The notes below the pieces were generated by a model. It did no database searches. It saw nothing but the letters and a program-made list of their open reading frames with translations, and was not told the origin of the DNA. This document shows, one piece after another, positions 22,537-39,347 of a DNA stretch of 64,000 nucleotides (positions are counted from its first letter, which is position 1; each line of letters begins with the position of its first letter). Origin of the DNA: Caulobacter segnis ATCC 21756 (GTDB lineage: Bacteria; Pseudomonadota; Alphaproteobacteria; Caulobacterales; Caulobacteraceae); the NCBI RefSeq assembly GCF_000092285.1, contig NC_014100.1, forward strand, positions 2,542,001 to 2,606,000. The letters run 5' to 3'. The position numbers were made by a program, and so were the translations under genes.

Positions 22537-23247
22537 ATGAAGAGCAAGATTTACGAGAGCGCCGCCGCGGCCCTGGAGGGCGTCGTCTTCGACGGCATGA
22601 CCCTGATGTCCGGAGGCTTTGGCCTGTCGGGCAATCCCGAGACCTTGATCCCGGCCCTGAAGGACACCGGCGTCAAGGGCCTGACGGTGATCAGCAACAA
22701 TTGCGGCGCGGACGGCTTCGGCCTCTGGATGCTGCTGAACAACGGCCAAATCCGGAAGATGATCTCGTCCTACGTGGGCGAGAACAAGCTGTTCGAGCAG
22801 CTCTACCTGTCGGGCGAGCTGGAGCTGGAGCTGAACCCGCAGGGCACCCTGGCCGAGCGCATCCGCGCCGGCGGCGCCGGCATCCCGGCCTTCTACACCA
22901 AGACCGGAGTCGGCACGGTCGTGGCCGAAGGCAAGCCGGTCGAGACCTTCGAGGGCGAACCGTACGTCCGCGAGACCTGGCTGCGCGCCGACCTCGCCAT
23001 CGTCAAGGCGTGGAAGGCCGATCCGGAAGGCAACCTGATGTTCCGGATGACGGCCCGCAACTTCAATCCGGTCATGGCCACGGCCGGCAAGGTGACGATC
23101 GTCGAGGTCGAAGAGATCGTCGAGGCCGGCGAACTCGACGCCAATGCGATCCACACGCCCGGCATCTATGTCGACCGCATCATCCGCTCGACGATCAACG
23201 AAAAGCGGATCGAGAAGCTCACCACCCGTCCTCGGGAGACCGTGTAA
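22537..23247 (+). CDS. pcaI: 3-oxoadipate (3-oxoacid) CoA-transferase subunit A
   Basis: 236 residues, starting [20 protein letters not shown], with the CoA-transferase alpha signature [10 protein letters not shown] near 28 and [11 protein letters not shown] near 52. With subunit B it moves CoA from succinyl-CoA to 3-oxoadipate. By sequence the pair resembles the SCOT/ScoAB type as much as classical PcaIJ; its position beside pcaF and pcaHG argues for 3-oxoadipate as substrate. The ATG at 22537 lies 17 bases after pobA and follows AGGAGG. The stop overlaps the next start by one base (TAATG). Confidence 0.9.
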
Positions 23248-23894
23248 TGGCCTGGACCCGCGACGAGATGGCGGCCCGCGCCGCCCGCGAACTGAAGGAC
23301 GGCTTCTACGTCAACCTCGGCATCGGCATCCCGACCCTGGTGGCCAACCATATCCCCGAAGGCGTCCACGTCACCCTGCAGAGCGAGAACGGCATGCTGG
23401 GCATGGGGCCCTTCCCCTATGAGGGCGAGGCCGATCCGGACCTGATCAACGCTGGCAAGCAGACCATCACCAAGCTGCCGACCTCCAGCTTCTTCGACAG
23501 CGCCCAGAGCTTCGCCATGATCCGCGGTGGGCACATCGACCTGACGGTGCTGGGCGCGATGGAGGTGGCCCAGAACGGCGACATCGCCAACTGGACGATC
23601 CCGGGCAAGATGGTGAAGGGCATGGGCGGGGCCATGGACCTGGTGGCCGGCGTCAAGCGCGTCATCGTGGTCATGGATCACGCCAACAAGGCCGGCCAGA
23701 GCAAGGTCCTCAAGCGCTGCGCCCTCCCCCTGACCGGCGCGGCCTGCGTCGACATGGTCATCACCGATCTCTGTGTCTTCGACCTCGACCGCAAAGGCGG
23801 CGGCCTGACGTTGATCGAGCTCGCTCCCGGGGTCACCCTCGACGAGATCAAGGCCAAGACCGAGGCCGATTTCGACGCGGGAGCTTTCGCATGA
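23247..23894 (+). CDS. pcaJ: 3-oxoadipate (3-oxoacid) CoA-transferase subunit B
   Basis: 215 residues. It contains [21 protein letters not shown] near 20 and the catalytic glutamate in [14 protein letters not shown] near 50, which carries the glutamyl-CoA intermediate in this family. The C-terminal part [20 protein letters not shown] is typical of beta subunits. It is overlapped by pcaI (one base) and overlaps pcaF (ATGA), so the subunits are translationally coupled. The product 3-oxoadipyl-CoA is the substrate of PcaF. Confidence 0.92.
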
Positions 23895-25091
23895 CCACCG
23901 CCTATCTCTGTGACGGGATCCGCACGCCGATCGGCCGCTACGGCGGCGCCCTGGCCAAGGTGCGGGCCGATGACCTGGCGGCGATCCCGCTGAAGGCGCT
24001 GGCCGCGCGCAATCCCAGCCTCGACCTCTCGGCCCTCGACGAGGTTGTGATGGGCTGCGCCAACCAGGCCGGCGAGGACAATCGCAACGTCGCCCGCATG
24101 GCCCTGCTGCTGGCCGGCTATCCGGTCGAGGTCCCCGGCGTCACCGTCAACCGCCTGTGCGCCTCGGGCCTGGAGGCCGTCGGCTACGCCGGCGCGCGCC
24201 ATCCTGTCGGGCCAGAACGACCTCGTCATCGCCGGCGGCGTCGAGAGCATGAGCCGCGCGCCGTTCGTGATGGGCAAGGCCGACAGCGCCTTCTCGCGCA
24301 ACGCCGAGATCTACGACACCACCATCGGCTGGCGCTTCGTGAACCCAGCCATGCGCAAGGCCTATGGCGTCGACTCCATGCCCGAGACCGCCGAGAACGT
24401 CGCCACCGACTACCAGGTCAGCCGCGAGGACCAGGACGCCTTCGCCCTGCGCAGCCAGCAGCGCGCCGCCGCGGCCCAGGCCAACGGTTTCCTGGCCGGT
24501 GAGATCACGCCGGTCGAGATCCTTGGCAAGGCTGGCCCGACGATCGTCGACCGCGACGAGCACCCGCGCGAGACCACGCTGGAGGCGTTGGCCAAGCTGA
24601 AGCCCGTCGTCCGCGAAGGCGGCACGGTCACGGCCGGCAACGCCTCGGGCGTCAATGACGGCGCGGTGGCCCTGATCGTCGCCTCGGAAGATGCCGTGAA
24701 GCGTCACGGCCTGACGCCGCGCGCTCGGATCACCGGCTACGCCACGGCCGGCGTGCCACCGCGCGTCATGGGCGTCGGCCCGGTCCCGGCGGTTCGCAAG
24801 CTGCTGGCCAAGACTGGCCTGTCGATCGGCGACTTCGACGCCGTCGAACTGAACGAGGCCTTCGCCGCCCAGGGCCTAGCGGTCCTGCGCCAACTGGGTC
24901 TGCCCGACGACGGCGAGCACGTGAACGCCAACGGCGGCGCCATCGCGCTGGGCCACCCCCTGGGCGCGTCCGGCGCGCGGCTGGTGCTCACCGCCCTGCG
25001 GCAGCTCGAGGCGACCGGCGGCAAGCGCGGCCTCGCCACCCTTTGCATCGGCGTCGGCCAGGGCGCCGCCCTCGCCTTCGAGCGCGTCTAG
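23891..25091 (+). pseudogene. pcaF: 3-oxoadipyl-CoA thiolase, frameshifted
   Basis: The thiolase cleaves 3-oxoadipyl-CoA to succinyl-CoA and acetyl-CoA, the last step of the pathway. The first frame encodes the acyl-binding cysteine C90 in [12 protein letters not shown] and then breaks at residue 100. The second frame, from about 24196, carries [10 protein letters not shown], the catalytic [10 protein letters not shown] and CIGVGQG. Removing one base from the CCGGCGCGCG run at 24189-24198 restores [20 protein letters not shown] and a 399-residue protein. Taken literally, the gene is dead and the pathway would stop at 3-oxoadipyl-CoA unless another thiolase replaced it; the gene at 45932 is a candidate. 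A sequencing error is at least as likely. Confidence 0.9.
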
Positions 25092-25100
25092 GAGACCCTC

Positions 25101-25814
25101 ATGAGCCTGATCCTGCCTGGTTCCTATCGGCGCGAAGACGCGGGCCAGCCGCCCTCGCTCTATCCGGACTACGGGTCGACCGTCTCGCGCTCGCCCCGCG
25201 AACCTCTGGTCAGGATCCCCCACACCCTGACCGAGACCACCGGCCCGGCGAACGCCTGGTCGCGGCTGATGGGCGAGTCGATGGCCGACCTGACGACCCA
25301 GCACAAGGGCGAGCCCCTGGGCCAGCGGATCGTCGTCTCGGGCCGCGTCGTCGACGAGGACGGTCGGCCCGTTCCCCACACTGTGGTCGAGGTCTGGCAG
25401 GCCAACGCCGCCGGCCGCTACATCCACAAGAAGGACCAGTGGGACGCGCCGCTGGACCCCAACTTCACCGGCGCCGGGCGGGTGATCACCGACGCCGAGG
25501 GTCGCTACCGCTTCATCTCGGTGCGGCCGGGCGCCTATCCCTGGCGGAACCACAAGAACGCGTGGCGTCCGTCGCACATCCACCTGTCGCTGCTGGGCCC
25601 GGCGTTCGCCACCCGACTGGTGACCCAGATGTACTTCCCGGACGATCCGCTGATCGAGATCGATCCGATCGCCAACGCCGTGCCCATGCCCTTCCGCCAG
25701 CGGATGGTCTCGCGCTTCGACCTCGAGACGACCGAACCCAACTGGGCCCTGGGCTACGTCTTCGACATCGTCCTGCGCGGCCGTGACGCCACGCCTTTCG
25801 AGAACGGCCAATGA
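25101..25814 (+). CDS. pcaH: Protocatechuate 3,4-dioxygenase beta subunit
   Basis: 237 residues of the intradiol dioxygenase family. PcaH carries the non-haem Fe(III) ligands (two Tyr, two His); the region GRYRFISVRPGAYPW followed by WRPSHIHLSLLG near 140-165 holds the ligand tyrosine and histidines. The N-terminal RIPHTLTETTGP is typical of beta subunits. The enzyme opens protocatechuate to 3-carboxy-cis,cis-muconate. The ATG lies 9 bases after pcaF behind AGGAGA. The stop overlaps pcaG by four bases. Confidence 0.95.
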   Translation: MSLILPGSYRREDAGQPPSLYPDYGSTVSRSPREPLVRIPHTLTETTGPANAWSRLMGESMADLTTQHKGEPLGQRIVVSGRVVDEDGRPVPHTVVEVWQANAAGRYIHKKDQWDAPLDPNFTGAGRVITDAEGRYRFISVRPGAYPWRNHKNAWRPSHIHLSLLGPAFATRLVTQMYFPDDPLIEIDPIANAVPMPFRQRMVSRFDLETTEPNWALGYVFDIVLRGRDATPFENGQ

Positions 25815-26473
25815 CCCCCGAACAAGCCCGCCCCGCCCCGCGCCAGGACAACCAAGATCCGGCGATCTTCGGCCAGACACCCTGGCAGACGGTCGGCCCC
25901 TTCTTCCACTACGGCCTGCCCTGGAAGGGCGGCGCCGACCTGGTCGGGACCAGCGAGATCGGCGCGCGCCCGGAGCTTATGCCGCCCGAACACTACGTTC
26001 TGGCCTCGCCCAGCCCCAAGGGCGAGATCGCGGGCGAGACGATCATCCTTGAAGGCGCGGTGATCGACGCCGACGGCCAGGTGATCCCGGACGCCATGGT
26101 CGAGATCTGGCAGGCCGACGCGGCCGGCCGCTACGCCGAAGGCAACACCGGCTTCATCGGCTTTGGCCGATCCTCGACCAGCGAGGACGGGATCTACCGC
26201 TTCCGCACCCTTCGTCCCGGCGCGATCGGCGACGGCCACGCCCCGCACATCGCCATCGGCGTCTTCGGCCGGGGCCTGCTCAAGCGCCTGGTCACCCGGG
26301 CCTATTTCGAGGGCGACGACGCCAACGCCAGCGACGCGATCCTCGACCTCGTTCCGGCCCAGCGCCGCGACACGCTGATCGCCCGCCGCGTGGGGGAAGA
26401 GGACGGGGCCGCCGTCTGGCGCTTCGACATCATCTTGCAAGGCGAAGGCGAAACGGTCTTCTTCGACATCTGA
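25811..26473 (+). CDS. pcaG: Protocatechuate 3,4-dioxygenase alpha subunit
   Basis: 220 residues, homologous to PcaH but lacking the iron ligands. It has QTVGPFFHYGLPW near 33, the shared VEIWQADAAGRYAE near 94 and a late HIAIGVFGRGLLKRLVTRAYF. The first 20 residues are proline/alanine-rich. The alpha subunit completes the substrate pocket of the alpha-beta protomer. Start overlaps pcaH (ATGA). The next gene begins 22 bases downstream. Confidence 0.95.
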   Translation: MTPEQARPAPRQDNQDPAIFGQTPWQTVGPFFHYGLPWKGGADLVGTSEIGARPELMPPEHYVLASPSPKGEIAGETIILEGAVIDADGQVIPDAMVEIWQADAAGRYAEGNTGFIGFGRSSTSEDGIYRFRTLRPGAIGDGHAPHIAIGVFGRGLLKRLVTRAYFEGDDANASDAILDLVPAQRRDTLIARRVGEEDGAAVWRFDIILQGEGETVFFDI

Positions 26474-26495
26474 CGCTGAACGGAGTCGTCCGCCC

Positions 26496-27641
26496 TTGCC
26501 TTCCCTGCTGCGCGACCGACCGGCCTCGACGCCGGAGATGCTGGCCGTGTTCGGCGACGAGGCGCTGCTGAAGGCGGCCCTGGCGTTCGAAGCCGAGCTC
26601 GCCCTGGCCCAGGCCGAGCTGGGCCTGATCCCGCGAGGCGACGCCGAGGCGATCGCAGCCGCCTGCGCGTCCCCGTTCGACATCGCCGAACTGGCCGAAG
26701 CCACCGCCCACGCGGGCACCCTGGCCATTCCGCTGGTCGAGCGCCTCCGGGCCCGCGTGTCGCCGCCGGAGGCCGCCGGGCGCGTCCACAAGGGCGCGAC
26801 CAGCCAGGACCTCGCGGACACCGCGCTGATGCTGCAGGCGCGGGATGGCGCGGCGCTGATCCGACGCGACGCGGCGCGGCTGGCCGACGCCCTCGCGGTT
26901 CTGGCGCGCGCACATCACTCCACCCCGATGCTGGGCCGCACCCTGCTCCAGGCCGCCCTGCCGATCACCTTTGGCCTGAAGGTCTCGACCTGGCTGTCGG
27001 GCGTGACCGGCGCGCTGACGCGGTTCGACCGCGAGATCGGCGCGATCCGCCTGCAGTTCGGCGGAGCCACCGGCTCGCGCGCCGGCCTCGACGGACAGGG
27101 CGCGGCGCTGGCGGAACGGCTGGCCGTGCGGCTCAACCTTCCACCCGCCCTCCCCTGGCACGCCGAGCGCCAAGGGGTGGCGGGTCTGGCCTCCGCGCTG
27201 GCCATCCTGACCGGCGCGATCGGCAAGATCGCCGGCGACGTCGCGCTGATGGCCCAGGTCGAGGTCGGCGAGGCCTTCGAGCCGCGCCAGGCCGGACGGG
27301 GCGGCTCCTCGGCCATGGCTCACAAGCGCAATCCGACCGGATGCCAGGTCGCCCTGTCGGCGGCGATCCGCGCGCCGCATCTGGCGGCCACCCTCGTCTC
27401 GGCCCTGCCCCAGCAGCATGAGCGCGGCCTGGGCGGCTGGCAGGCCGAGGGGCCCGTCCTGGCCGAACTGTTCCAACTGACCCACGGCGCCCTCGCCGCC
27501 ATGGTCACGGTCATCGAAGGCCTGGAGGTCGACGAGGGCCGCATGGCCGCCAACCTCGCCGCCGCCCAGGTCGGGACCGACACGGGCGAGAGCGCGGCGC
27601 TGGTCGCCCAGGCGCTGGCCGCTTACGAAAAGGACCGCTGA
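26496..27641 (+). CDS. pcaB: 3-carboxy-cis,cis-muconate cycloisomerase
   Basis: 381 residues of the fumarase/aspartase superfamily. It carries the superfamily signature GSSAMAHKRNPTGCQ near 270 and the upstream HKGATSQDLADTALML near 96. PcaB lactonises carboxymuconate to 4-carboxymuconolactone. Length is slightly short of the 450 residues of some members but matches alphaproteobacterial forms. The start is a TTG at 26496 preceded by CGGAG; no ATG is usable. The stop overlaps the next start (TGATG). Confidence 0.93.
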   Translation: MPSLLRDRPASTPEMLAVFGDEALLKAALAFEAELALAQAELGLIPRGDAEAIAAACASPFDIAELAEATAHAGTLAIPLVERLRARVSPPEAAGRVHKGATSQDLADTALMLQARDGAALIRRDAARLADALAVLARAHHSTPMLGRTLLQAALPITFGLKVSTWLSGVTGALTRFDREIGAIRLQFGGATGSRAGLDGQGAALAERLAVRLNLPPALPWHAERQGVAGLASALAILTGAIGKIAGDVALMAQVEVGEAFEPRQAGRGGSSAMAHKRNPTGCQVALSAAIRAPHLAATLVSALPQQHERGLGGWQAEGPVLAELFQLTHGALAAMVTVIEGLEVDEGRMAANLAAAQVGTDTGESAALVAQALAAYEKDR

Positions 27642-28822
27642 TGCCCTTCGCGATCTCGCACGGCGCCCGCCTCTACTGGCGTCAGGACGGCGCGGCCGAC
27701 AAACCGGCCCTGGTGCTGCTGACCTCGATCGGCACGGATCTGTCGCTCTACGATCCGGTCGTGCCGCTGCTGACCCCGGACTTCCTCGTCATCCGCCTGG
27801 ACACACGGGGGCACGGGGCGTCGGACGCGCCGGCCGGCGACTACAGCCTGGACCTGCTGGCCGACGACGTGCTGGCGGTGATGGACGCCGCCGGCGTCGA
27901 CAAGGCCAGCCTGTGCGGGACCTCGCTGGGCGGCATGATCGCCATGACCCTGGCCGCCAAGGCGCCCGAGCGGGTCGAGGCTTTGATCCTGGCCTGCACA
28001 TCGCCGGCCATGGATCCTTCCACCTGGGACCAGCGTCTGGCTCTGATCCGCGCCGAAGGCATGGGCGCGATCGTCGAGGCGGTGATGGGGCGCTTCTTCT
28101 CCGACGCCTTCCGGGCCCAGCATCCTGAGGTCGTCGAGACCGTGCGCGTCGGCATGCGGGCCCAGAGCGTCGACGGCTACGCCGGCTGCGGCGCGGCCAT
28201 CCGTGACATGGCCCTGCTGGAGCGCCTGCCGGCCATCGTCGCTCCGGCCCTGGTGGTGACCGGAGCCAAGGACCTCGCCACCCCTTACGATGGCCATGGC
28301 GAGCGCATCGTCGCCGCCGTCACGGGCGCGCGCCATGTCGAGATCGGCGGCGCCCACCTGCCCAGCCTGGAAGCGCCCACGGCCCTGGCCGGCGCGGTGC
28401 GGGACTTCCTGCGCGAGGTCCGGCGCGGGACCGCCGTGCGCGAAGCCAAGGACACGTTGTTTGAGGCGGGCCTGGAAATCCGCCGCAAGGTGCTGGGCGA
28501 CGCCTGGGTCGACAAGTCCCTGGCCAAGCGCACCGCCTTCACCGCCGACTACCAGGCGATGATCACCCGCTACGCCTGGAACGAGATCTGGGGCCGGCCG
28601 GGCCTCGATCACCGCACCCGCCGCCTGCTGGTGCTGGCCATCTGCGCCAGCCTGGCGCGGTGGGAGGAGTTCCGTCTCCACGTCCGCGCCGGCTTGGAGC
28701 AAGGCGGCTTCACCCAGGAGGAGCTGAAGGAGGTGCTGATGCAGACGGCGATCTACGCCGGCGTGCCCGCCGCCAACACCGCCTTCACCGAGGCCGCCGA
28801 GGTCATCGCCGAATTGGGCTGA
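27641..28822 (+). CDS. pcaL: Fused 3-oxoadipate enol-lactonase / 4-carboxymuconolactone decarboxylase
   Basis: 393 residues joining two enzymes. Residues 1-260 are an alpha/beta hydrolase (PcaD) with nucleophile elbow GTSLGG (S95), an acid in VTGAKDLATP and a histidine in GAHLPSLEAP. Residues about 270-393 are the AhpD-like decarboxylase (PcaC), with RYAWNEIWGRPGLDHRTRRL and EEFRLHVRAGLEQGG. The fusion, known as PcaL in several bacteria, makes 3-oxoadipate from 4-carboxymuconolactone in two steps. Gene order pcaHGB-L is thus complete down to 3-oxoadipate. It is the last gene of the operon and converges on the esterase gene with 15 bases between stops. Confidence 0.95.
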   Translation: MPFAISHGARLYWRQDGAADKPALVLLTSIGTDLSLYDPVVPLLTPDFLVIRLDTRGHGASDAPAGDYSLDLLADDVLAVMDAAGVDKASLCGTSLGGMIAMTLAAKAPERVEALILACTSPAMDPSTWDQRLALIRAEGMGAIVEAVMGRFFSDAFRAQHPEVVETVRVGMRAQSVDGYAGCGAAIRDMALLERLPAIVAPALVVTGAKDLATPYDGHGERIVAAVTGARHVEIGGAHLPSLEAPTALAGAVRDFLREVRRGTAVREAKDTLFEAGLEIRRKVLGDAWVDKSLAKRTAFTADYQAMITRYAWNEIWGRPGLDHRTRRLLVLAICASLARWEEFRLHVRAGLEQGGFTQEELKEVLMQTAIYAGVPAANTAFTEAAEVIAELG

Positions 28823-28837: not shown

Positions 28838-29731
28838 CTATTTCAGGCCCTTGCGTTCGACGTGCCAACCCGGTCGCGCGCAGAGGCGGCAGTCTGGACC
28901 GACGAACATGGCCCGCCCGGCCTTATCGCCCTTCAGCTGCCAGTTCAGCCATGCGACAGCCACCTCGCCGAACGCGCCGCCGCGCGGCTGGCCATAGGTC
29001 CCGCCGTGGCCGACGCCATCCTCGTAGGCCCGAACGACCGGGATGTGGTCGATCCGCGCGAAGTCGTCATTGGCGTTGCCGAAGGCGATGTCGCTGGCGT
29101 CGCCGCTGACATAGATCGCCGGACCGTGGAGGGCCTTCAGGCTCGCCTTGGTCACGTTGGCGCCCGGCAAGCCGCCCGTTCCCGTCCCCAGAACGCCGCT
29201 GTTCCACACGCCCGTGGTGGTGACGCGCGGGTCGGCCGACGCCTCGATGGCCTGGAGGCCGCCGCAGGACATGCCCATCACCGCGATCTTCTTGACGTCA
29301 AGACGCCCCTTGTAACGGCTGTCCGACCGCGCGTTCTCGGCGACCGCCCAATCGATGGCGTCGATCAGTTGCGATGAGGTGGTCTTGGGCGGCGCGTTCA
29401 TGTCAGGGCGCTGCGGCGGCCCCGCGGTCGGCGGCTTGGGCCCGACGATCGGACCGATGGCCACGACCAGATAACCGTGCCCGGCGATCTCGGTCAGGAA
29501 CTTGGCGAAGGCGTCGCCCTCGTTGGCGCAGGCGCCGTTGGCCCAGGCCAGGATCGGCAGCTTTGTCGCGCCCACGGCGGCCAGGTCCGCCGGTCGGTAG
29601 ACCGTATGGGTCGGCAAGCTCGGGTCGCTTTCCATCACGGCCTGATAAAGCGGGGGCGCTGGCTCACGGGCGACGACCGCGCTGGGGAGGACCAGGGCCG
29701 CCAGCGTCGCGGCCAAAATCGGAAGCTTCAT
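28838..29731 (-). CDS. Exported alpha/beta hydrolase (chlorophyllase/cutinase-like fold)
   Basis: 297 residues with a signal peptide (residues 1-21). The core has PILAWANGACANEGD near 60, the nucleophile elbow GMSCGG (S155), an acidic residue in IYVSGDASDIAFGN and a histidine in DGVGHGGTYGQP near 256. Several cysteines are present, including a late CRLCARPG pair. It is an esterase-type enzyme of unknown substrate. The ATG at 29731 starts the signal peptide and follows TGGAGAG; the longer frame overlaps the upstream gene. It lies 44 bases after the dehydratase-like gene and is probably the third gene of its operon. Confidence 0.82.
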   Translation of the reverse strand: MKLPILAATLAALVLPSAVVAREPAPPLYQAVMESDPSLPTHTVYRPADLAAVGATKLPILAWANGACANEGDAFAKFLTEIAGHGYLVVAIGPIVGPKPPTAGPPQRPDMNAPPKTTSSQLIDAIDWAVAENARSDSRYKGRLDVKKIAVMGMSCGGLQAIEASADPRVTTTGVWNSGVLGTGTGGLPGANVTKASLKALHGPAIYVSGDASDIAFGNANDDFARIDHIPVVRAYEDGVGHGGTYGQPRGGAFGEVAVAWLNWQLKGDKAGRAMFVGPDCRLCARPGWHVERKGLK

Positions 29732-29775
29732 CGGAACTCTCCAGACGGGGGAATGGGACGGGTCGCGATAGATGG

Positions 29776-32103
29776 TCAAAGGCTCTCGATGAAGGCCGTG
29801 ACGGCCGCCTCCAGAGCGTCGCCCTCAAGGCTCATATTGCTCATCGGCAGGCGCAGCACCGGCACGCCGGCGCGCTCCAGGGCGGCCAGGACGAAGGGGT
29901 CGGCGTCGTCGATCGCCACCGCCCCGTGCACGCCGTGGGTCTGAGCTTCCTTGACGTGCCAGGCGCCCGCCCAGGTCGGCATGCGCAGCTCGTCGCCCAT
30001 GGTCACGAAGCGCGCGGCCAGGGCGCGCATGGCGTCCTTCTCGCCCTCGAACGATCGCAGATAGCCGTCGGCGGCTAGGCCCAGATACATCGACCAGACG
30101 AACACCGCGCCGTGGCTCTCCTCCCAGCGCTGGTAGAAGCCCATGTCGCTCCAGAGCCCGCGTCCGACCCACATCAGGCGAATCTTCTCGCCCGGGCACG
30201 CGGCCTCTCCGGCCTCGACACGCGCGGCGACCTCTTCGTAGAAACGCCTGGCCGCGTCGCGGCCCCAGACCGAGCCGCGATGCCACTGCGGCACCATAGT
30301 GGCCGGCATGGTGTCGACGATGCCCGCCGGGGCCGGATGGGTGGCGGCGATCAGGTCGCGCGTGCGGCGGTAGTAGTCCTCCTGCTCGTTGACGAGGTTC
30401 ATCACCTCGACGAAGCGGGCCGGCTCGAACTTGCGACCGGTGATCGCCTCCAGGCGCGGGATGCTGGCCTCCAGCTGGGCGGTCAGCAGGTCCAGTCGCT
30501 CGGCCTCGAGGGTCTCTTCCCACCGCTCGGGCAGATCGGACCACCATTCCAGGGGCAGGTCCCAGCGTCCCTCGATCGAGCGCGCGTAGGCGAAAAGCTC
30601 CGCGCCCGTCTCGCGGGCCCAGGCCTCGAACAGCTTGGGTCCGGCGTCAGAGCCCGCCGTCAGGGCCAGGATGTCGGGCTTGGGCAGACCGCCCCACGGC
30701 GCGGCCTCGACGTCCGTGTCGAGGGCCGCCGCCAGGCCCTGGGCGCTGTAGGACTCGACGTCGGACGGATAGTCGGCCGCCCGCAGCAGGGCGGCGTAGT
30801 CGCGGCCACGCTGCTTGGCCGCCACGATCGAGGCCCACCACTGGTTCACCACATAGGGGATGTCCATGGCCCGCAGGATTTCCTGCGGGGCGTCGGCGTT
30901 GACCACCGCGAACGGCCCCTCCGCCGCCTTGCGCCGGACCTCGGCGAACCAGTCGCGTTGCCAGGTCGCGAAATCGGCGGTCGAGGTCAGCGCCTTCTGG
31001 CTGCGCCGCCCGACATTGGCGGCGGCGCCGGGACGCTTCGCCCCGTCGGTGACAGGCTTCGGAGCGCGCGGCGCGGGGGCGATCGGGCCGGAGGGATCGG
31101 CGAAGAAAGCCGACAGCTTGGCGGCGAGGTCGGCCGTGTCCGGGACCGGATCCAGTCGTAGCGTCGCCAGCGGCTTGCCGACGGCGGCCAGCGCCTTTCG
31201 CGTCTCGGCCACGTCCCACGGCGAGGCCTCGTCGCCCGGCAGTCGGACATGGAGAACCGCATCGACGTCCAGCCCCGAGGCTTGGGCCGCGAGAGCCTGG
31301 GCGCGGACTTTGCTGGAGCCCGTGGGCGCGGACGACGGCGGCGCCTCCCACCGCGCCGCGAGCGCGTCGAACGGATCCAGGCTTTCGTCCAGCAGGACGA
31401 CTGCCGACGGCTCGCCCCAGTCATGATCCTCGCCGACGATCACGTAGCCGGCCGCTTCGATCGCGGCGTAGACTGCGGTTGTCTCATGCGGCGAGCCGGT
31501 GACCAGCACGCGACGGCCCGAGAGCGGCCGCGCCTGCGCGCGCGCGGCCTCGATGGCGCGGTCGCCGTCCTCGCGCGGGGCCTGGCTGACGTGGCGGATC
31601 AGGTCTAGCGCCTGGACGCCGCTCAACTTCGGCGTCTTCTCGGCGCGCAGGGCCAGGACCTCGGCGAGGCTGCGGCGCTGGGCGTTGCTCGCGGCGATCT
31701 CGGCGCGCAGGGCGTCGGCGGTGACAGCCCGCCCGCCGAGCGTCTCCAGCCAAGCCTTGAAGCTGGCCAGCCGCGCGCGATTGTAGGCGCGGACCGCCGG
31801 CTCAGCGCCGTGCAGGATATCGAGGTGAACGACCGGGGGCGCCGGGAAGCCTCCCACCCGCGACAGCTCGCGCAACACAGAGAACAGCTGCGCGTCCTCA
31901 ACGCATCCATGGGCGATGGCGACGCCAGCGAAGTCTCTGTTCCTGACCTGAGCCACCAGCCCACTCGTGCGCGGCGTCTGGCCGGCGAGGCCGTCGGTCG
32001 TCTGGGCGGTAGCGGCCGACAGGCGCACCGGCGTGAAGCCCGCCGCGGCGACCAGTTCACGCGGAATGTCCGCCCCGACGCAGGCCAAAATCGGCGCGGA
32101 CAT
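29776..32103 (-). CDS. Fused 2-hydroxyacyl-CoA dehydratase-like protein lacking cluster cysteines
   Basis: 775 residues that read as two HgdB/FldBC/BcrBC-type domains in one chain: about 1-335 (PRELVAAAGFTPVRL at 14-28, FAGVAIAHGCVEDAQLF at 58-74, then the ALRAEIAASNAQRR helix) and about 375-775 (PYVVNQWWASIVAAK at 416-430, LPKPDILALTAGSD at 473-486, MPTWAGAWHVKEAQ at 708-721). Known family members are two-subunit radical dehydratases or reductases with a [4Fe-4S] cluster per subunit bound by cysteines. Here there are only three cysteines (C8, C67, C636). Where relatives have a cysteine before SYAR there is E450, and the C-terminal NxC-type position reads AGSD. No activator ATPase gene is in the window. 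The start overlaps the CoA-transferase stop (TGATG). The chemistry is therefore unknown; the fold assignment is good. Confidence 0.75.
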   Translation of the reverse strand: MSAPILACVGADIPRELVAAAGFTPVRLSAATAQTTDGLAGQTPRTSGLVAQVRNRDFAGVAIAHGCVEDAQLFSVLRELSRVGGFPAPPVVHLDILHGAEPAVRAYNRARLASFKAWLETLGGRAVTADALRAEIAASNAQRRSLAEVLALRAEKTPKLSGVQALDLIRHVSQAPREDGDRAIEAARAQARPLSGRRVLVTGSPHETTAVYAAIEAAGYVIVGEDHDWGEPSAVVLLDESLDPFDALAARWEAPPSSAPTGSSKVRAQALAAQASGLDVDAVLHVRLPGDEASPWDVAETRKALAAVGKPLATLRLDPVPDTADLAAKLSAFFADPSGPIAPAPRAPKPVTDGAKRPGAAANVGRRSQKALTSTADFATWQRDWFAEVRRKAAEGPFAVVNADAPQEILRAMDIPYVVNQWWASIVAAKQRGRDYAALLRAADYPSDVESYSAQGLAAALDTDVEAAPWGGLPKPDILALTAGSDAGPKLFEAWARETGAELFAYARSIEGRWDLPLEWWSDLPERWEETLEAERLDLLTAQLEASIPRLEAITGRKFEPARFVEVMNLVNEQEDYYRRTRDLIAATHPAPAGIVDTMPATMVPQWHRGSVWGRDAARRFYEEVAARVEAGEAACPGEKIRLMWVGRGLWSDMGFYQRWEESHGAVFVWSMYLGLAADGYLRSFEGEKDAMRALAARFVTMGDELRMPTWAGAWHVKEAQTHGVHGAVAIDDADPFVLAALERAGVPVLRLPMSNMSLEGDALEAAVTAFIESL

Positions 32104-33360
32104 CAGATCGCGCCCGCCTGCGCCAGCGCCTCGACCTGCTCGTCCGAATAGCCCAGCAGTTCGCGATAGATCGTCGCGTTGTGCTGGCCGACCGCCACCG
32201 GCAACACCTGATCAAAGCCCGTGCGCCCTTCGGAGAACTGGATCGCGCACGCCGCTGGTCAGCAAGCCGTCGTCGCGCGTGTAGGCGGGATGGGTGATCG
32301 GCATGGTCTCGCCCCGCGCCAGGACGCGAGGATCGTGCAGCCCCTCGGCGGGATGGCGGACCGGCGCGGCCGGAACGCCCTGCGCTTCCAGTCGTCGCAC
32401 GACCTCGTCGGTCGGCAGTTGGCTGGACCAGGCCTCGATCAGGGCTTCCAGGACCTTGGCGTTGGCGACGCGGCGGTCACGCGTGGCGAAGCGCGGATCC
32501 TCGCCCAGCGCCTCGTTTTCCATGGCCTTGAACAGGCCGCGCGCCAAGCCCTCATGCACGGCGACGATCGAGACATAGCCGTCCGCGCAGCGGAAGACGC
32601 CGAACGGTGACAGGCGCTGCACCGTCAGCCCGGTGCGCGCCTCCATCCCTGCCAGCGCCATAGCCTGCCAGTTCTCGATCGCCACGAACGAGGTCAGGGC
32701 GCCCAGCATCGAGACGTCGACCTGCTGCCCTTGCCCCGTGCGGCGACGCTGCTCCAGCGCGGCGAGCACGCCGATGACCCCGAACACCGGGGCCAGCATG
32801 TCGGCCATCGGAACGCCGATCCGGACCGGCGGATCGTCCGGCCCGCCGCTGGTGTACATGGCGCCGCTGAGCGCCTGGATCAGCACGTCCATGGCCTTGC
32901 TGCCTTCGGACACGCCCGCGCCGAAGCCGCTCAGTGAGCAGTAGATGATCCCCGGATTGGCCGCCTTGGCCGCCGCGTAGCCCACGCCCAGGCGGTCGGC
33001 CGTGCCGCTCGTGAAATTCTCGACGACGATGTCGGCGTCGCGCGCCAGGTCCGCGAACACCTCTCTGGCCTTTGGATGCTTGAGGTTCAGGCTGACGCCG
33101 TACTTGCCGCGCGCCCGGGTCAGGTGCGAGATCGAAAGATCGTCCTCATGGCGGCGCTCTACACTGACCCCGTCGCGACCGACATAGGGGCTGTTCTCCC
33201 GCGCCAGATCACCGCCACGCGGATCTTCCACCTTGATCACCGTCGCGCCCAGGCCCGCCAGCAACAGCGTGGCGTAGGGCCCCGCGAGCGCCCGGGTCAG
33301 GTCGATGACCTTCAGGCCCTCGAGCGGGCGAGGACGGGTATCGGCGGGGGCGTCAGTCAC
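32103..33360 (-). CDS. Class III (CaiB/FldA-type) CoA-transferase, C-terminal frameshift
   Basis: Family III CoA-transferase. It has the opening LEGLKVIDLTRALAGPYAT near 13, VIKVEDPRGGD near 41 and the catalytic aspartate D158 in GSKAMDVLIQALSG. The frame as given stops at 32212 after an abnormal tail. Removing one base near 32243-32249 (GCGCG) restores IQFSEGRTGFDQ and LLGYSDEQVEALAQ, with a stop at 32105-32103 coupled to the dehydratase start, giving 418 residues. I prefer the GTG at 33360 (AGGA seven bases upstream) over the ATG at 33435, which has no ribosome-binding site. It probably loads CoA on the acid that the next protein uses, by analogy to FldA-FldBC; this is inference. Confidence 0.85.
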
Positions 33361-33466
33361 GGCGTTGTCCTGGAGAAAGTCGACTTGGAATGCGGAAAGA
33401 CGCACCGGAATCCAGACGCCCTCCCTTTCGTCCATTCAGGGAGGGTGAGTGCGTCATGTCAATAAA

Positions 33467-33615: not shown

Positions 33616-33697
33616 TTTGACGTCGAACGATTTTTCGCTCGGCCGAAAACAGAACAGCCGACGGCGGGCGCGCCGGACGGCGCACGGGAGGGCCGCC

Positions 33698-36406
33698 ATG
33701 AAGACCACCAATTCACGCCACGCCTGCGTCTCGCACCTTGCGATGATCGTCGCCGCCTGGTCGGCCGCGTCGGCCGTGCAGGCGCAGACCGCGCCACAAC
33801 CCTCGACCATAGAAGATACGGCGGTCTCAGAGATCGTGGTCACGGGGACCAGCATTCGTGGGGTGGCGGCCGCCGGCTCGCCCACGGTCGGCGTAAGCCT
33901 TCAGGACCTGAAGGCCTCCGGGGCCGGCACACCCAGCGACGCGCTGCGCATGCTGCCCCAGGTGTTGAACCTGGGCGCCGATGAAAGCCGCAGCAGCTTC
34001 AACGGCGGGGCGCAGGACGCCGCGGCCAACTCCACCGCCGTTCGCACCGCCAACCTCCGCGGCGTCGGTCCCGAGGCCACTCTGCTGCTGCTGAACGGCC
34101 GCCGGCTGGCGCCAAACGGCATCATCAAGGCGCTGGGCGACCTCGACCAGATCCCGACCTCCGCCGTCGCGCGCATCGAGGTCGTCACGGACGGCGCCTC
34201 GGCCATCTACGGTTCGGACGCCGTGGCCGGTGTCGTGAACCTGATTACGCGCCGCTCGCTCGACGGCGGCGAGACCACCTTCCGCTACGGTTTCGCCGAC
34301 AACGTCTCGCAGAAGCAGTTCAGCCAAACGTTTGGCAAGACCTGGGACACCGGCGAGCTGTTCTTCTCGTTCGAACACAACGAGCGCGGCAATCTGTCGG
34401 GCGTGGATCGCGACTTCGCCAGCCAGAACCGCACCACGCGGGGCGGCACGGACGCCCGTCCCTTCACCGCCGCGCCGGGCAACATCGTCATCGGCGGCGT
34501 GCGCTACGCCCTGCCCGCCGGCAACGGCGTCGGGATCAATCCGTCGGCCCTGGTGGCTGGCACGGCCAATCGCTACGACGAGGGGGCGGCCGCCGACCTG
34601 CTGCCCAAACAGAACCGCAACACGATCCTGTTCAACGTCCACCAGCACATCGGCGACAAGGCCGAGGTCTGGTACGAGGGCTTCTACACCCGCCGCAAAT
34701 ATAACCTCGCCGCGCCGCCCGCCCTCTTCAGCCTGACGGTGCGCAACACCAATCCCTGGTTCGTCTCGCCCGCCGGCCAGACCTCCGAGACGGTCGAATA
34801 CCGCCTGACCGACGACGCCGATCCGAACTCGACGGGCTTCGAGAACGCCCAGCAGAACGCGATCGGGTTCAACTACGATCTGGGCAAGCAATGGCGGATC
34901 GCCGCCTATGCCGACCACAGCATCAGCCGGGGCTTCCAGGACCGCAAGAACGTCCTGAACAACGCCGCCCTCACCGCGGCTCTCGCCAGCAGCAGTCAGG
35001 CGACCGCGTTCAATCCGTTCGGCGACGGGACGTTCAACCGCACCAACAACTCCGCCCTGCTCGACATCATCGACGCCAACCGCGCGACGTGGGGCACCAA
35101 CATCGCCAAGGACTATTCGATCAAGGCCGACGGTCCGATCTTCGACCTGCCCGCGGGCTCGGTCCGCGTCGCGGTGGGCGCCGAGTACCACGACAACAGC
35201 TTCAAGCAGACGCTTGAGGCGACCAACGTCCTGGCCAGCGGCGCGGCGACCTACAAGATCGTGCGCAACAGCCGCGACATCAAAACCCTGTACGGCGAGC
35301 TGTTCGTGCCGATCGTCGGGCCGTCGAACGCCCTGCCGGGCGTGCAGCGCCTGGAGCTGTCACTGGCCGGCCGGCGCGAGGACTATTCCGACTTCGGCAA
35401 CACCACCAACCCGAAGATCGGGGTCATCTACGCGCCGATCTCCGACCTGACGCTGCGCGCCACCTATGGCACCTCGTTCCGCGCCCCGTCGCTGATCGAC
35501 AGCGCCGACCAGATCAAGAACATCTTCATCCAGAACCTGACCGACCCGACGTCTTCCACCGGCGTCACCCGCGGCATCTTCACCAACGGCGGCAACGGCC
35601 AGCTGGGTCCGGAGACGGCCAAGACTTGGTCGGCGGGCCTGGACTGGAAGCCGAAGGCGATCAGCGGCCTCAGCGTCTCGGCCACCTGGTACAAGATCCT
35701 CTACAACAACCGCATCGACGTGACACCGAACACGGCCCTGGCCAACGGTTCGGTCTATGCGGCCTTCGTCACGCGCCGCCCGGCGGCGTCGGACACGGCG
35801 GGGACGGCAGCCTTCAACGCCCTGGTCGCCGCCGCCCTGGCCAGCCCCGACCTGCAGAACCCGGTCGAGCCGGTCGCCAACATCAACGTGCTGATCGACG
35901 GCCGCCGCCAGAACCTGGGCCAGCTGGACCAGCGCGGCCTGGACGTCTCGGTCCGCTACGCCTTCAGCACGCCCGTCGGCGACTGGACGGTGTCGACCGA
36001 GGTCGCCAAGATCCTGAAACTGGAACGCAAGACCGCCGCGAGCGCGCCTTGGCAGGATGTGCTGGACACCTTCGGCAACCCGATCGACCTGCGCGTGCGC
36101 GGCGCAGTCGGCTGGCGCTCGGACGGCTGGTCGGCGAACCTCTTCGCCAACTACACCGACAGCTACCTGAACACCGCCGTCACGCCGAACGTGAAGGTCA
36201 AGAGCCAGACGATCTTCGACGCGACGGCGTCCTACGCCTTCGAGCGCGAGGCCGGCTGGGCCAAGGACCTGAGAATCTCGGCCAACGTCATGAACCTGTT
36301 CGACAAGGATCCGCCGGTCGTTCTGAACGGCACCCTGTCGTGGGACAGCCAGGCCGCTTCGCCGCTGGGTCGCTTCGTCTCCGTGGAGATCAGCAAGGCC
36401 TGGTGA
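33698..36406 (+). CDS. TonB-dependent receptor
   Basis: 902 residues. Signal peptide cut near AVQA-QT (residues 1-29), TonB-box region VSEIVVTGTSIRGVAAAGSP near 42, plug with LLLLNGRRLAPNG, VEVVTDGASAIYGSDAVAGV, and a large barrel ending GRFVSVEISKAW. The GTSIRG opening and LLNGRR plug place it with the large oligosaccharide- or polymer-type receptors of Caulobacter and sphingomonads. The start at 33698 follows GGGAGG; the longer frame adds unrelated basic residues. It is divergent from the CoA-transferase/dehydratase operon and 77 bases ahead of a CocE-type hydrolase gene. The imported ligand is unknown. Confidence 0.92.
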   Translation: MKTTNSRHACVSHLAMIVAAWSAASAVQAQTAPQPSTIEDTAVSEIVVTGTSIRGVAAAGSPTVGVSLQDLKASGAGTPSDALRMLPQVLNLGADESRSSFNGGAQDAAANSTAVRTANLRGVGPEATLLLLNGRRLAPNGIIKALGDLDQIPTSAVARIEVVTDGASAIYGSDAVAGVVNLITRRSLDGGETTFRYGFADNVSQKQFSQTFGKTWDTGELFFSFEHNERGNLSGVDRDFASQNRTTRGGTDARPFTAAPGNIVIGGVRYALPAGNGVGINPSALVAGTANRYDEGAAADLLPKQNRNTILFNVHQHIGDKAEVWYEGFYTRRKYNLAAPPALFSLTVRNTNPWFVSPAGQTSETVEYRLTDDADPNSTGFENAQQNAIGFNYDLGKQWRIAAYADHSISRGFQDRKNVLNNAALTAALASSSQATAFNPFGDGTFNRTNNSALLDIIDANRATWGTNIAKDYSIKADGPIFDLPAGSVRVAVGAEYHDNSFKQTLEATNVLASGAATYKIVRNSRDIKTLYGELFVPIVGPSNALPGVQRLELSLAGRREDYSDFGNTTNPKIGVIYAPISDLTLRATYGTSFRAPSLIDSADQIKNIFIQNLTDPTSSTGVTRGIFTNGGNGQLGPETAKTWSAGLDWKPKAISGLSVSATWYKILYNNRIDVTPNTALANGSVYAAFVTRRPAASDTAGTAAFNALVAAALASPDLQNPVEPVANINVLIDGRRQNLGQLDQRGLDVSVRYAFSTPVGDWTVSTEVAKILKLERKTAASAPWQDVLDTFGNPIDLRVRGAVGWRSDGWSANLFANYTDSYLNTAVTPNVKVKSQTIFDATASYAFEREAGWAKDLRISANVMNLFDKDPPVVLNGTLSWDSQAASPLGRFVSVEISKAW

Positions 36407-36483: not shown

Positions 36484-38217
36484 ATGAAGTCCTCAGCGAT
36501 CGCCCTCGCCGCCGCGCTTTCCGCCGCCGCCACCGCCCTGCCCGCGCTCGCCGCGCCGCCGTCCAACTTCGGCGCCTATGCGCCCAAGGCGCTCTATTCG
36601 CAGCAGGTGGCGACCTCGTTCTATCTGCCGATGCGCGACGGCACGAAGATCGCGATCTCGCTGCATCGCCCGGCGGTGAACGGCAAGCCAGTGGACACGC
36701 GCCTGCCGGTCATCTGGCACCACACGCTGGACATCGAGAAGACGGGCGTGCGCGAAACGGGCGCGGCCCAGTCGCTGACCGACCTTACCCGCGCGGGCTA
36801 TGTGGTGGCGATCGTGGCGCGACGCGGCAACGGCGCCTCGTTCGGCGTCAGGCGCGGCTATGAAGACTTCACCGAAGGCTTCGACGCCTACGAGATCACC
36901 GAGTGGCTGGCCGCCCAGCCCTGGTCTGACGGCAAGATCGGGATGTACGGCTGCTCGAACACCGGCGAGGCGGTGATGCACGCCATGATCGCCCGCCCGC
37001 CGCACCTGAAGGCCGCCTTCGCCGGCTGCTTCGCCTGGGAGCGCTACGACGGCCACACGCGCGGCGGGATCATCTCGCAGTACGGCACCGGCCCGACCCG
37101 CACGCTCGAGGACGACCTGAAGGCCACGCCCGTGCAGGGCGATGAGGACCGGACGCTGCTACGCCAAGCGGCCGAGGAGCATCAAAAGTCGACCAACCTG
37201 CTCGAGCTGATGAAGTCCATGCCCTACCGCGACAGCTGGTCGCCGCTGGTCATGGCCAAGTTCTGGGGCGAGGTCAGCATCGGCGCCTATCTCAGCCAGC
37301 TGAAGGCCTCGAACGTTCCGCTCTACATCCAGGGCGGCTGGTACGACGACTTCCGCACCGAGGGCCTGATCGCCCAGGCCAACCTGCCAGACCAGGCGCG
37401 CATCGTGATCGGCCCCTGGCGGCACTGCCTGAACAACGGCTTCGACCTGCGCGCCGAGCAGCTGCGCTTCTTCGACCACTATTTGAAGGGAGAGGCGACG
37501 GGGATCGAGACCGACGCGCCCATCCACTATTTCACGATCGGCGCGCCGAAGGGCCAGGAGTGGCGCTCGACCGACCGCTGGCCGCGCCCCGACGCGCGCA
37601 ACGCCCTGTTCCTCGACGCGGGCGCGCTGAAGCCCAAGCCCGCGACCAAGACGGCGGCCACCAGCGTCACGGTCGACTACGCACCGGCCTGCCCGCCCGA
37701 TCCGGTGCAGCCCAACTGGGGCCCCTTCGCCCAGCCGTGCCATCCGGCCAAGGCCAGCTTCGTCTATAGCGGCCCGGTCCTGAAGGCCGACACCGAGATG
37801 ACCGGCTCGCCGCTGGCCGACCTCTGGATCTCCTCGACCGCGCCCGAGCAGCCGGTGTTCGCCTATCTGGAGGACGTCGCGCCCGACGGCTCGGTCACGG
37901 TGGTCAGCGAGGGCCGCCAGCGCGCCTCGCTGCGCAAGGTCGTGACCGCCCCTTGGGACACGATCGGCACGCCCTGGCGTCGCGCCTGGACCGAGGACCA
38001 CCACCCCCTGAAGGCCGGCGAGCCCGTGCGGGTGTCGTTCGACATGCTGGCGGTGTCCTATGTCTTCAAGGCCGGGCACCGGGTGCGGATCGCCGTCAGC
38101 GGGGCCGAGCCCCGCGAGCGCGCGCGGGTCGAGACCTCGCCGCCGCCGACCCTGACCCTGCACACCGGCGGCGACACGCCGTCCAGCGTCATCCTTCCGG
38201 TGCGGAGCGCGCCGTGA
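36484..38217 (+). CDS. CocE/NonD-family exported hydrolase (X-Pro peptidase-like)
   Basis: 577 residues with a signal peptide (cut after ALAA, residue 24). The N-terminal alpha/beta-hydrolase domain opens VATSFYLPMRDGTKIAISLHRP. The nucleophile elbow is GMYGCSNTGEA (S158), where relatives usually have GxSYGG. The acid is in QGGWYDDF near 288 and the histidine in IGPWRH (H314). The C-terminal jelly-roll (PLADLWISSTAPEQ onward) is the CocE/DPP-15 lid. The family cleaves esters or amides such as cocaine, glutaryl-cephalosporins and X-Pro peptides. Its stop overlaps the CapA-like start (TGATG). Substrate is unknown. Confidence 0.87.
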   Translation: MKSSAIALAAALSAAATALPALAAPPSNFGAYAPKALYSQQVATSFYLPMRDGTKIAISLHRPAVNGKPVDTRLPVIWHHTLDIEKTGVRETGAAQSLTDLTRAGYVVAIVARRGNGASFGVRRGYEDFTEGFDAYEITEWLAAQPWSDGKIGMYGCSNTGEAVMHAMIARPPHLKAAFAGCFAWERYDGHTRGGIISQYGTGPTRTLEDDLKATPVQGDEDRTLLRQAAEEHQKSTNLLELMKSMPYRDSWSPLVMAKFWGEVSIGAYLSQLKASNVPLYIQGGWYDDFRTEGLIAQANLPDQARIVIGPWRHCLNNGFDLRAEQLRFFDHYLKGEATGIETDAPIHYFTIGAPKGQEWRSTDRWPRPDARNALFLDAGALKPKPATKTAATSVTVDYAPACPPDPVQPNWGPFAQPCHPAKASFVYSGPVLKADTEMTGSPLADLWISSTAPEQPVFAYLEDVAPDGSVTVVSEGRQRASLRKVVTAPWDTIGTPWRRAWTEDHHPLKAGEPVRVSFDMLAVSYVFKAGHRVRIAVSGAEPRERARVETSPPPTLTLHTGGDTPSSVILPVRSAP

Positions 38218-39347
38218 TGACCGCGCCGTTCAAGCTCTACATGACCGGCGACCTCGTGCTGGACGAGCCGAACGCCGACTTCTTCTTCGACAAGGCGCGG
38301 CTTCTGCTGGCGGAGGCCGATCTGCTGATCGGCCACGTCGAGGTGCCGCACACCACGCGAGGCCGGGAGTCGGTCGGCGACATCCCCGCCCCCGCCAGCG
38401 ATCCGGAGAACTTGAAAGCGGTCGGCCGCGCCGGCTTCCACATGGTCAGCCTGGCGGGCAATCACATCCACGATCGCGGCGGCGAGGGCATCGACGACAC
38501 GATCGCCAATCTCGCCGGCCAGGGCCTCGTCAGCGCCGGCGCCGGCCTCGACCTGGACCAGGCGCGTCGGCCGGCCGTGGCGGCGCGAGGCGGCGTCCGC
38601 GTCGGGCTGCTCAGCTACAATTGCGTGGGCCCCAAGGAAGGCTGGGCGGGACCCAAGCGCGCCGGCTGCGCCTATCTGAAGATCATCACCCATTACGAGC
38701 TCGAGAACGCCAATCCGGGCGGGCCACCCAAGGTCTACACCTTCGCCGATCCCGACACGGTCGAGGCCATGCAGGCCGATATCGCGGCCATCCGCGGCCA
38801 GGTCGACGTGCTGGTCGTGGCCTTCCACAAGGGCGTGGTCCACACCCCTGCCCACATCGCCATGTACGAGAAGGCCGTAGCGCGCGAAGCGATCGAGGCC
38901 GGGGCCGACATCGTGATCGGCCATCACGCCCACATCCTGCGCGGGGTCGAGGTCTGGCGCGGCAAGCCGATCTTCCATGGCCTGGGCAACTTCGTGAGCG
39001 TCACCCGCGCCCTGACGGCCGAGGGCAACGAAAATCCGGTTCGCCGCGCCTGGGCCGAGAAGCGCAAGGTGCTGTTCGGCTTCGAGCCCGATCCCGCCTA
39101 TCCGCTGTACCCTTTCCACCCCGAGGCTAAGAACGGCATGGTCGCGGCCTGCCATATCGGCGCCGACGGCGTGATCAGCCCCGGCTTCCGGCCGATCTGG
39201 ATGACGCCGACGGGACAGCCCGAGCCGCTGGTCGACGACGCGCGCGGCCGGGCGGTGGCCGACTATGTCGCCGAGATCAGCCGCAAGGCGGGCCTCAAGA
39301 CCGACTTCGCCTGGGACGGCCAGCGAGTCGCCTTCTCGGCTTCGTAA
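38217..39347 (+). CDS. CapA-family (PGA_cap) metallophosphatase-like protein
   Basis: 376 residues with CapA-family metallophosphoesterase blocks: LYMTGDLVLDEPN near 5, LLIGHVEVPH near 36, SLAGNHIHDRG near 78, VVAFHKGVVH near 201, and GADIVIGHHAHILRGVEVWRGKPIFHGLGNF near 230-260. CapA is best known from poly-gamma-glutamate export, but many homologues have no known role. No capB, capC or pgs genes are nearby and no signal peptide or membrane anchor is present, so a capsule role is unlikely. It is translationally coupled to the CocE-type hydrolase (TGATG), which suggests a joint catabolic role, perhaps hydrolysis of an imported amide, ester or phosphate. That is inference. Confidence 0.83.
   Translation: MTAPFKLYMTGDLVLDEPNADFFFDKARLLLAEADLLIGHVEVPHTTRGRESVGDIPAPASDPENLKAVGRAGFHMVSLAGNHIHDRGGEGIDDTIANLAGQGLVSAGAGLDLDQARRPAVAARGGVRVGLLSYNCVGPKEGWAGPKRAGCAYLKIITHYELENANPGGPPKVYTFADPDTVEAMQADIAAIRGQVDVLVVAFHKGVVHTPAHIAMYEKAVAREAIEAGADIVIGHHAHILRGVEVWRGKPIFHGLGNFVSVTRALTAEGNENPVRRAWAEKRKVLFGFEPDPAYPLYPFHPEAKNGMVAACHIGADGVISPGFRPIWMTPTGQPEPLVDDARGRAVADYVAEISRKAGLKTDFAWDGQRVAFSAS

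Follow-up and report, generated by a model that had tools for sequence, protein, structure and literature searches.

A single-chain relative of the 2-hydroxyacyl-CoA dehydratases without the iron-sulfur cluster ligands in Caulobacter segnis, and its putative role in the catabolism of plant phenolic esters

In the 64,000-nucleotide stretch of the Caulobacter segnis ATCC 21756 genome analysed here (NC_014100.1, positions 2,542,001 to 2,606,000; hereafter, the window), the gene at 29776..32103 encodes a 775-residue protein that is, by descent, a member of the HGD-D superfamily and that, by the tested features (ligands, activator, equivalog cut-offs), is no radical dehydratase, benzoyl-CoA reductase or double-cubane protein. 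We propose that this is an enzyme that arose from the two-cluster radical 2-hydroxyacyl-CoA dehydratases, needs neither cluster nor activator and would act on a thioester made by a CoA-transferase in a pathway for plant phenolic esters, a reading to which we assign a probability of about one half. The basis in hand consists of homology, fold, the loss of ligand residues, the lack of an activator match, the gene partners and genomic linkage.

A dehydratase fold without the cluster ligands

29776..32103, minus strand: single-chain HGD-D/HGD-D protein, 775 residues, ATG start, with PF06050 and fold matches
31084..32103, minus strand: N-terminal domain, residues 1-340, resembling beta subunits (BzdN/HadC/DCCP)
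29779..31008, minus strand: C-terminal domain, residues 366-775, resembling alpha subunits (HadB/BzdO/MbdO)

The strand, which the preliminary description did not give, is minus (32103..29776), and translation confirmed a single frame of 775 residues with cysteines at positions 8, 67 and 636 and at no others. Chance or artefact is ruled out by the HGD-D score, by the G+C content at codon positions 1, 2 and 3 (0.74, 0.53 and 0.89) and by the ratio of nonsynonymous to synonymous differences (pN/pS), which is 0.34 in the N-terminal and 0.09 in the C-terminal domain relative to locus L104, and 0.66 and 0.28, respectively, relative to the more distant L105. A protein search yielded at least 346 homologues with E ≤0.001; among the best 120 of these 346, the nearest named relatives are from Caulobacter. 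The gene is carried by 7 of the 75 genomes of the genus, the source genome included, and thus is accessory. The alignment of close relatives comprised 119 of 121 proteins (690-860 residues; the two left out have 511 and 515 residues). A scan of named genomes gave 230 relatives, of which the best 80 were kept as loci. They come from Proteobacteria (50), Actinobacteria (19) and apparent anaerobes such as rumen Bacillota, Coriobacteriales and Dethiobacter (11), the labels “anaerobe” and “aerobic” being taken from record titles and known habits.

The suggestion that two domains are laid out like the subunits of a dehydratase held up well. The Pfam model PF06050 (HGD-D) matches two stretches of the protein with 229 bits (cut-off 28.4), fold comparison assigns the fold of the alpha and beta dehydratase subunits to both halves, and, a whole-genome scan scores each half on its own with HGD-D, at 118.2 and 114 bits within a single open frame, with no further HGD-D match in the 4.66-Mb single-contig genome. 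At the threshold of ≥95% among the 119 relatives, the N-terminal domain is weakly conserved (24/340 columns) and the C-terminal domain highly so (166/410 columns). None of the equivalog models was passed, neither HadB and HadC (63.9 and 13 bits versus cut-offs of 750 and 700), nor bzdN, bzdO and bcrC (37.8-47.1 bits versus 421-454), nor the double-cubane anaerobic reductase NF040772 (79.3 bits versus 350). The homologues bear out the co-occurrence with a CoA-transferase and the loss of cysteines that had been anticipated, but not a general fusion: the halves lie in separate frames in 16 of the 19 actinobacterial and 8 of the 11 anaerobic homologues, and because such split forms occur, the fusion, which is not universal, is a minor point.

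In the solved enzymes, three cysteines of each subunit hold one [4Fe-4S] cluster; it is the beta cluster that accepts the electron from the activator and the alpha cluster at which dehydration takes place (PMC11574389, PMC8473912). The corresponding positions in the C. segnis protein are as follows.

30754..30756, minus strand: codon of E450, replacing alpha ligand 1 (Glu in 107/119 relatives, Asp in 12/119)
30649..30651, minus strand: codon of S485, replacing alpha ligand 2 (Ser or Thr in 117/119)
29899..29901, minus strand: codon of D735, at or beside alpha ligand 3 (Asp in 119/119)
31903..31905, minus strand: codon of C67, which lines up with one of the canonical beta ligands (Cys in 30/119)

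Thus, none of the three alpha ligands is retained, and of the three beta positions only that of C67 is, its two partners being missing; among the 119 relatives, there is no invariant cysteine column. The loss of the cluster ligands put forward in the preliminary description is therefore borne out. None of the refuting conditions named there has materialised, but one is touched upon by C67, which aligns with a canonical beta ligand and, given that only 30 of the 119 relatives share it, is probably a relic. In the actinobacterial proteins, ligand 1 is Glu (19/19), ligand 2 is Gly (15) or Thr (4), and ligand 3 is Asp (19/19). The anaerobic homologues all carry cysteines at the three alpha-ligand columns of the C-terminal domain (11/11) and none at the three beta-ligand columns. 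In one of these, L054, the three cysteines align, in HMMER, with those of MbdO and HadB that we take to be the ligands. The equivalence at ligand 3 may be off by one residue because the anaerobic proteins have about 8 extra residues there. An intact but misaligned set of ligands is ruled out, given that the alignment is linked to the solved structures through the anaerobic homologues and that the control pairs L088, L089 and L092 display all six ligand cysteines. The domain alignments used for the ligand columns cover domains of 90 bits or more, with the duplicate L002 removed.

As to the activator, PF01869 (BcrAD_BadFG) has no match in the C. segnis genome (G000), which speaks against an activator elsewhere in that genome, and a tblastn search with one activator as the query detected none in the flanks of the 80 homologous loci. 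The activator model TIGR00241 was surveyed in the genomes of 49 of these loci and scored above the cut-off in 14, namely, all 11 anaerobes and 3 of the 38 others, all three of them actinobacteria. In these three, the TIGR00241 gene adjoins a second HGD pair on a contig other than that of the cluster-free gene (one of the three regions was read). In the anaerobes G030 and G032, the only pair belongs to the present family, and the one activator match that exceeds the cut-off is part of a frame just short of 1000 residues.

Cluster-bearing and variant branches of the family

A tree of the C-terminal domain (54 of 95 rows, ligand columns omitted) places the 11 anaerobic sequences in one clade (support 86), together with two further rows that bear cluster ligands, and the aerobic Proteobacteria and Actinobacteria in another (support 99). 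Both clades, along with the cysteine-bearing sphingomonad sequence L086_15231, fall within a larger clade (support 98), in which the branching order is unresolved. At least 4 changes of ligand state are required on this tree, with the proviso that some rows with no or partial cysteine sets are long-branched and their placement is unsure. Given that a cluster-bearing anaerobic branch belongs to the same family, the C. segnis protein appears to be the outcome of a loss in steps and not a curiosity standing by itself; the direction, from two clusters to one to none, is inferred from rooting on the canonical enzymes.

Several variant loci fall beside this pattern. Versions from Novosphingobium and Croceicoccus plasmids keep two of the three cysteines; these loci (L083:12093-16344 and L085:12015-16296) encode a degenerate HGD N-half and a C-half with 2/3 ligand cysteines, and between the two halves lies a CoA-transferase that is apparently double, with two or three PF02515 stretches. 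Versions without any ligand cysteine that lie outside the larger clade come from Rhizobium sp. SSA_523 (L084:11875-14339) and Sphingomonas guangdongensis (L087:5760-8344), a separate subfamily outside the main aerobic clade, and, in two further instances, from the sphingomonad locus L086. The latter (L086:4977-17713, genome G019) contains three further HGD-D pairs and, next to them, genes for two CoA-transferases, for a member of the carotenoid-oxygenase family and for a TonB-receptor-like protein; all three alpha ligands are kept in one of the pairs, and the G019 genome has no TIGR00241 match.

Gene neighbourhood and linkage to hydroxycinnamate catabolism

The gene belongs to a cassette that spans 28838 to about 42073 of the window and comprises, in addition:

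28838..29779, minus strand: alpha/beta-hydrolase-like protein, directly downstream (PETase match of 22.8 bits, cut-off 28)
32212..33435, minus strand: class III (CaiB/BaiF) CoA-transferase, directly upstream at 108 bp (PF02515, 341 bits)
33617..36406, plus strand: TonB-dependent receptor, divergent
36484..38217, plus strand: CocE/NonD-type esterase
38217..39347, plus strand: CapA-like protein (PF09587 PGA_cap) of about 376 residues
39389..39919, plus strand: MarR regulator, best solved relative CouR, then PcaV
39923..41458, minus strand: MFS transporter
41477..42073, minus strand: second MarR regulator, which shares its NCBIfam relative with the first, each scoring far under the cut-off

The neighbouring class III CoA-transferase already recognised in the preliminary description is present in 77 of the 80 loci (47/50 Proteobacteria, 19/19 Actinobacteria and 11/11 anaerobes; these tallies are tblastn matches anywhere in the locus, and some loci are incomplete). 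Its best-scoring models name dicarboxylates or oxalate, all far under the cut-off, and because class III models overlap strongly, these names decide nothing. CouR senses p-coumaroyl-CoA. By eye, the hydrolase begins like a signal peptide at about 29731, and its relatives score 29.3 (L083) and 35.7 bits (L067) with the PETase model. In the same order of groups, CapA-like genes are found in 27/50, 15/19 and 5/11 loci, and CocE/NonD esterases in 27/50, 4/19 and 0/11. TRAP transporters (DctM; 40/50), TonB receptors (34/50) and MarR regulators (39/50) are proteobacterial, with 0/19 and 0/11 in the other groups; PaaX (16/19) and family-3 solute-binding proteins (18/19) are actinobacterial, with 0/50 and 0/11. 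The best solved relative of the PaaX-type regulator is an aryl-CoA-responsive phenylacetate repressor. Tannase- or feruloyl-esterase-like genes occur in 7/80 loci and also in L105, and MmgE/PrpD genes near 3/80 loci and also in L085. In the anaerobic locus L060, an acyl-CoA dehydrogenase-type gene, present in three closely related loci, comes after the pair and the CoA-transferase, and, 7 kb further on, there is a 2-hydroxyacid dehydrogenase-type gene, found in L060 only; this order would fit a route from 2-oxoacid through 2-hydroxyacid and enoyl to acyl compounds.

The aromatic-degradation setting that had been proposed is apparent from the genes that flank the cassette:

16372..17856, minus strand: acyl-CoA synthetase (PRK09088, 885 bits, cut-off 696), adjoining the hydratase/lyase
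17901..18722, minus strand: p-hydroxycinnamoyl-CoA hydratase/lyase (ECH; equivalog, 482 bits, cut-off 276), 11 kb away
18763..20175, minus strand: putative aldehyde dehydrogenase that passed no specific model, with its substrate inferred
21344..22519, plus strand: 4-hydroxybenzoate 3-monooxygenase PobA (686 bits, cut-off 539)
22701..28822, plus strand: pca genes for PcaJ-type, PcaF (split frame), PcaH, PcaG, PcaB and PcaDC proteins

ECH lies within 35 kb of the cassette in 15 of 39 genomes, compared to 0.47 expected, a Poisson comparison that overstates significance because the genomes are partly related; the 15 are made up of 14/26 Proteobacteria and 1/13 Actinobacteria, and they range over Caulobacterales, Sphingomonadales, Niveispirillum, Gammaproteobacteria and Amycolatopsis, with varied distances between ECH and the cassette. 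PcaH is within the same range in 6/39 genomes (0.24 expected). The count is based on genomes with a known place of the cassette; six actinobacterial genomes that had been searched but for which this place was lacking, L073, L074, L077, L079, L081 and L082, were dropped (L081, outside the count, holds ECH within its own locus). The ECH search covered genomes other than those of the 11 anaerobes. A general tendency of the cassette to lie in aromatic islands is ruled out: homogentisate dioxygenase (hmgA), above the cut-off in 19 genomes (18/44 and G000), is within 35 kb in none of the 18 with a known cassette place (by eye), and the control gene recA in 0/39 (0.56 expected).

Several observations concern the neighbouring genes in their own right. 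The gene pcaF (3-oxoadipyl-CoA thiolase; 23891-25091, plus strand) consists of two frames, the thiolase N-part at 23891-24502 and the rest at 24249-25091, a split that represents a frameshift or sequencing error given the single 399-residue frame in L104. CapA-like proteins recur in the three bacterial groups (window 38217-39347, L049:13628-14773, L080:7477-8619), and because the L049 copy gives a weak score with a model for a lasso-peptide epimerase (93 bits, cut-off 700), “capsule synthesis” is probably the wrong name here. Near 3 of the 11 anaerobic homologues, there are glycyl radical enzyme genes (L049:1624-6564, L054:460-5352, L057:4482-6869), in tandem in L049 and L054, and both L054 copies pass no specific model. 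Elsewhere in the window, a second catabolic block at 45932-54320 includes a thiolase, an acyl-CoA ligase and a carboxylesterase by model, and short-chain-dehydrogenase-like, TetR-like and receptor-like open reading frames by eye, and a large phytase-domain protein (460 bits) is encoded at 6805-8856.

Proposed function, alternatives and known systems

Under the reading that we favour, the enzyme would belong to a route by which plant phenolic esters are taken up and hydrolysed and which leads into the catabolism of hydroxycinnamoyl-CoA and protocatechuate, and the adjacent class III CoA-transferase would make the CoA thioester substrate. Because, without a beta cluster, the electron of an activator cannot be taken up, the chemistry would be redox-neutral, and, with the alpha cluster absent, no ketyl would form by the known route. 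Instead, the C-terminal domain might polarise the thioester carbonyl via the carboxylates at the former ligand places, E450 and D735, perhaps assisted by D486, D733 and a divalent metal, the carboxylates acting as acid/base groups or metal ligands, so that water would be eliminated or added, or a bond cleaved, next to the thioester. Probably, then, the protein carries out a task akin to that of the radical enzymes, but with another chemistry that oxygen does not harm. The preliminary interpretation is, on the whole, partly supported; it foresaw neither the cluster-bearing anaerobic branch nor the linkage to the hydroxycinnamoyl-CoA hydratase/lyase. As for the concrete reaction, the L060 layout and the hydroxycinnamate linkage suggest the conversion of aryllactyl-CoA (2-hydroxy-3-arylpropionyl-CoA) to hydroxycinnamoyl-CoA, a guess that we consider rather doubtful. 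FldABC performs this conversion anaerobically, and rosmarinate-type esters are a possible source of aryllactate. Equally tentative, and not likely as it stands, is the notion of an oxygen-tolerant 2-hydroxyacyl-CoA dehydratase without cluster, radical or ATP, with a carboxylate (perhaps metal) site at the ligand positions and with the anaerobic enzymes bearing one set of cluster ligands as living intermediates.

Several points weigh against the favoured reading. Of the 39 genomes, 24 have no ECH near the cassette (14 lack it, 9 have it on a different contig and 1 has it at a great distance), and linkage, in any case, indicates a pathway, not a step. Esterases, TonB receptors and TRAP transporters are found in none of the 11 anaerobic loci, and the 2-hydroxyacid dehydrogenase-type gene near a single one of these may be biosynthetic because a phosphoglycerate dehydrogenase model scores best, under its cut-off. 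The anaerobic proteins also share invariant cysteines that are not known ligands (columns 139, 427 and 453, 11/11 each). Activity, ligand and metal are predicted only, and carboxylates that replace cysteines need not bind metal. Finally, the reaction itself may be wrong because radical-free dehydration of an unactivated 2-hydroxyacyl-CoA is chemically hard (PMC11574389).

It is possible, albeit not what we would expect, that the enzyme acts on the non-aromatic half of a plant ester, a hydroxylated acid set free by the esterases, such as quinate, tartrate or malate, while its neighbours handle the aromatic half. The frequency of CocE esterases and carboxylate-type TRAP transporters among the proteobacterial loci, the tannase- or feruloyl-esterase-like and MmgE/PrpD genes and the dicarboxylate and oxalate models of the CoA-transferase are compatible with this possibility, but the overlap of those models deprives the last point of its force, and the regulators resemble the coumarate-type CouR and an aryl-CoA sensor. 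A non-enzymatic protein that binds CoA esters, serving the CoA-transferase, for example, as a scaffold or sensor, appears improbable: the weak conservation of the N-terminal domain and the loss of the ligands would fit, whereas the high conservation and low pN/pS of the C-terminal domain, with its invariant acids, His and Trp, are typical of an active site that functions. We find it hardly credible that Glu, Ser and Asp still hold an iron-sulfur cluster that operates by the old radical mechanism. Non-cysteine cluster ligands do exist (PMC11574389), and the residues at the ligand positions are able to bind iron; however, 35 of the 38 non-anaerobe carriers have no above-cut-off activator, just as PF01869 finds none in G000, the beta-cluster ligands are gone too, a glycine occupies ligand position 2 in most actinobacterial proteins, and the hosts are known as aerobes.

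Published reports describe 2-hydroxyacyl-CoA dehydration as dependent on radical chemistry, on a cluster of low potential and on an activator driven by ATP (PMC11574389, PMC8473912), so that a widespread branch with the scaffold and the CoA-transferase partner but no ligand sets makes a direct test possible: either iron-sulfur-free chemistry is feasible, or the scaffold has been recruited for a new reaction. In the literature searched, we found no paper on such a cluster-free branch. The anaerobic branch with one ligand set offers an intermediate for studying the loss of an iron-sulfur active site, the database names “2-hydroxyacyl-CoA dehydratase” and “benzoyl-CoA reductase” on relatives may be wrong, and one step of plant phenolic breakdown may await assignment.

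Among the known systems, the catabolism of ferulate and coumarate (acyl-CoA synthetase, ECH, aldehyde dehydrogenase) is encoded at a distance of no more than 35 kb both here and in a further 14 genomes, and, to our knowledge, none of its textbook steps requires a CoA-transferase or an HGD-D protein. The plasmalogen synthase PlsA-PlsR represents a further dehydratase-family branch that has taken on an unusual function (PMC12838417), but its chemistry is that of lipids, and we saw no context in common. DCCP/YjiM gives the highest NCBIfam score (79 bits) and is a top fold match of the N-terminal half, level with HadC, yet the score is far under the cut-off of 350 and the ligands of the DCCP cluster are missing. 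The benzoyl-CoA reductases BzdNO and MbdON, which are cluster-bearing and use an ATP-using electron donor, are among the top fold matches of the C-terminal half, level with HadB, BzdN is the top PDB profile match of the N-terminal half, and the aromatic-acid setting is shared; here, by contrast, there are no cluster ligands, and no ATP-using donor was found. Close as well are the (R)-2-hydroxyisocaproyl-CoA dehydratase HadBC (3o3m) and FldBC with FldA, the class III CoA-transferase partner of the phenyllactyl-CoA dehydratase FldBC: the fold of both subunits and the type of partner are the same, whereas the C. segnis protein dispenses with cluster ligands and activator, is found in what are presumably aerobic hosts, unlike those of HadBC and FldBC, and joins both parts in one chain with the beta-like part first.
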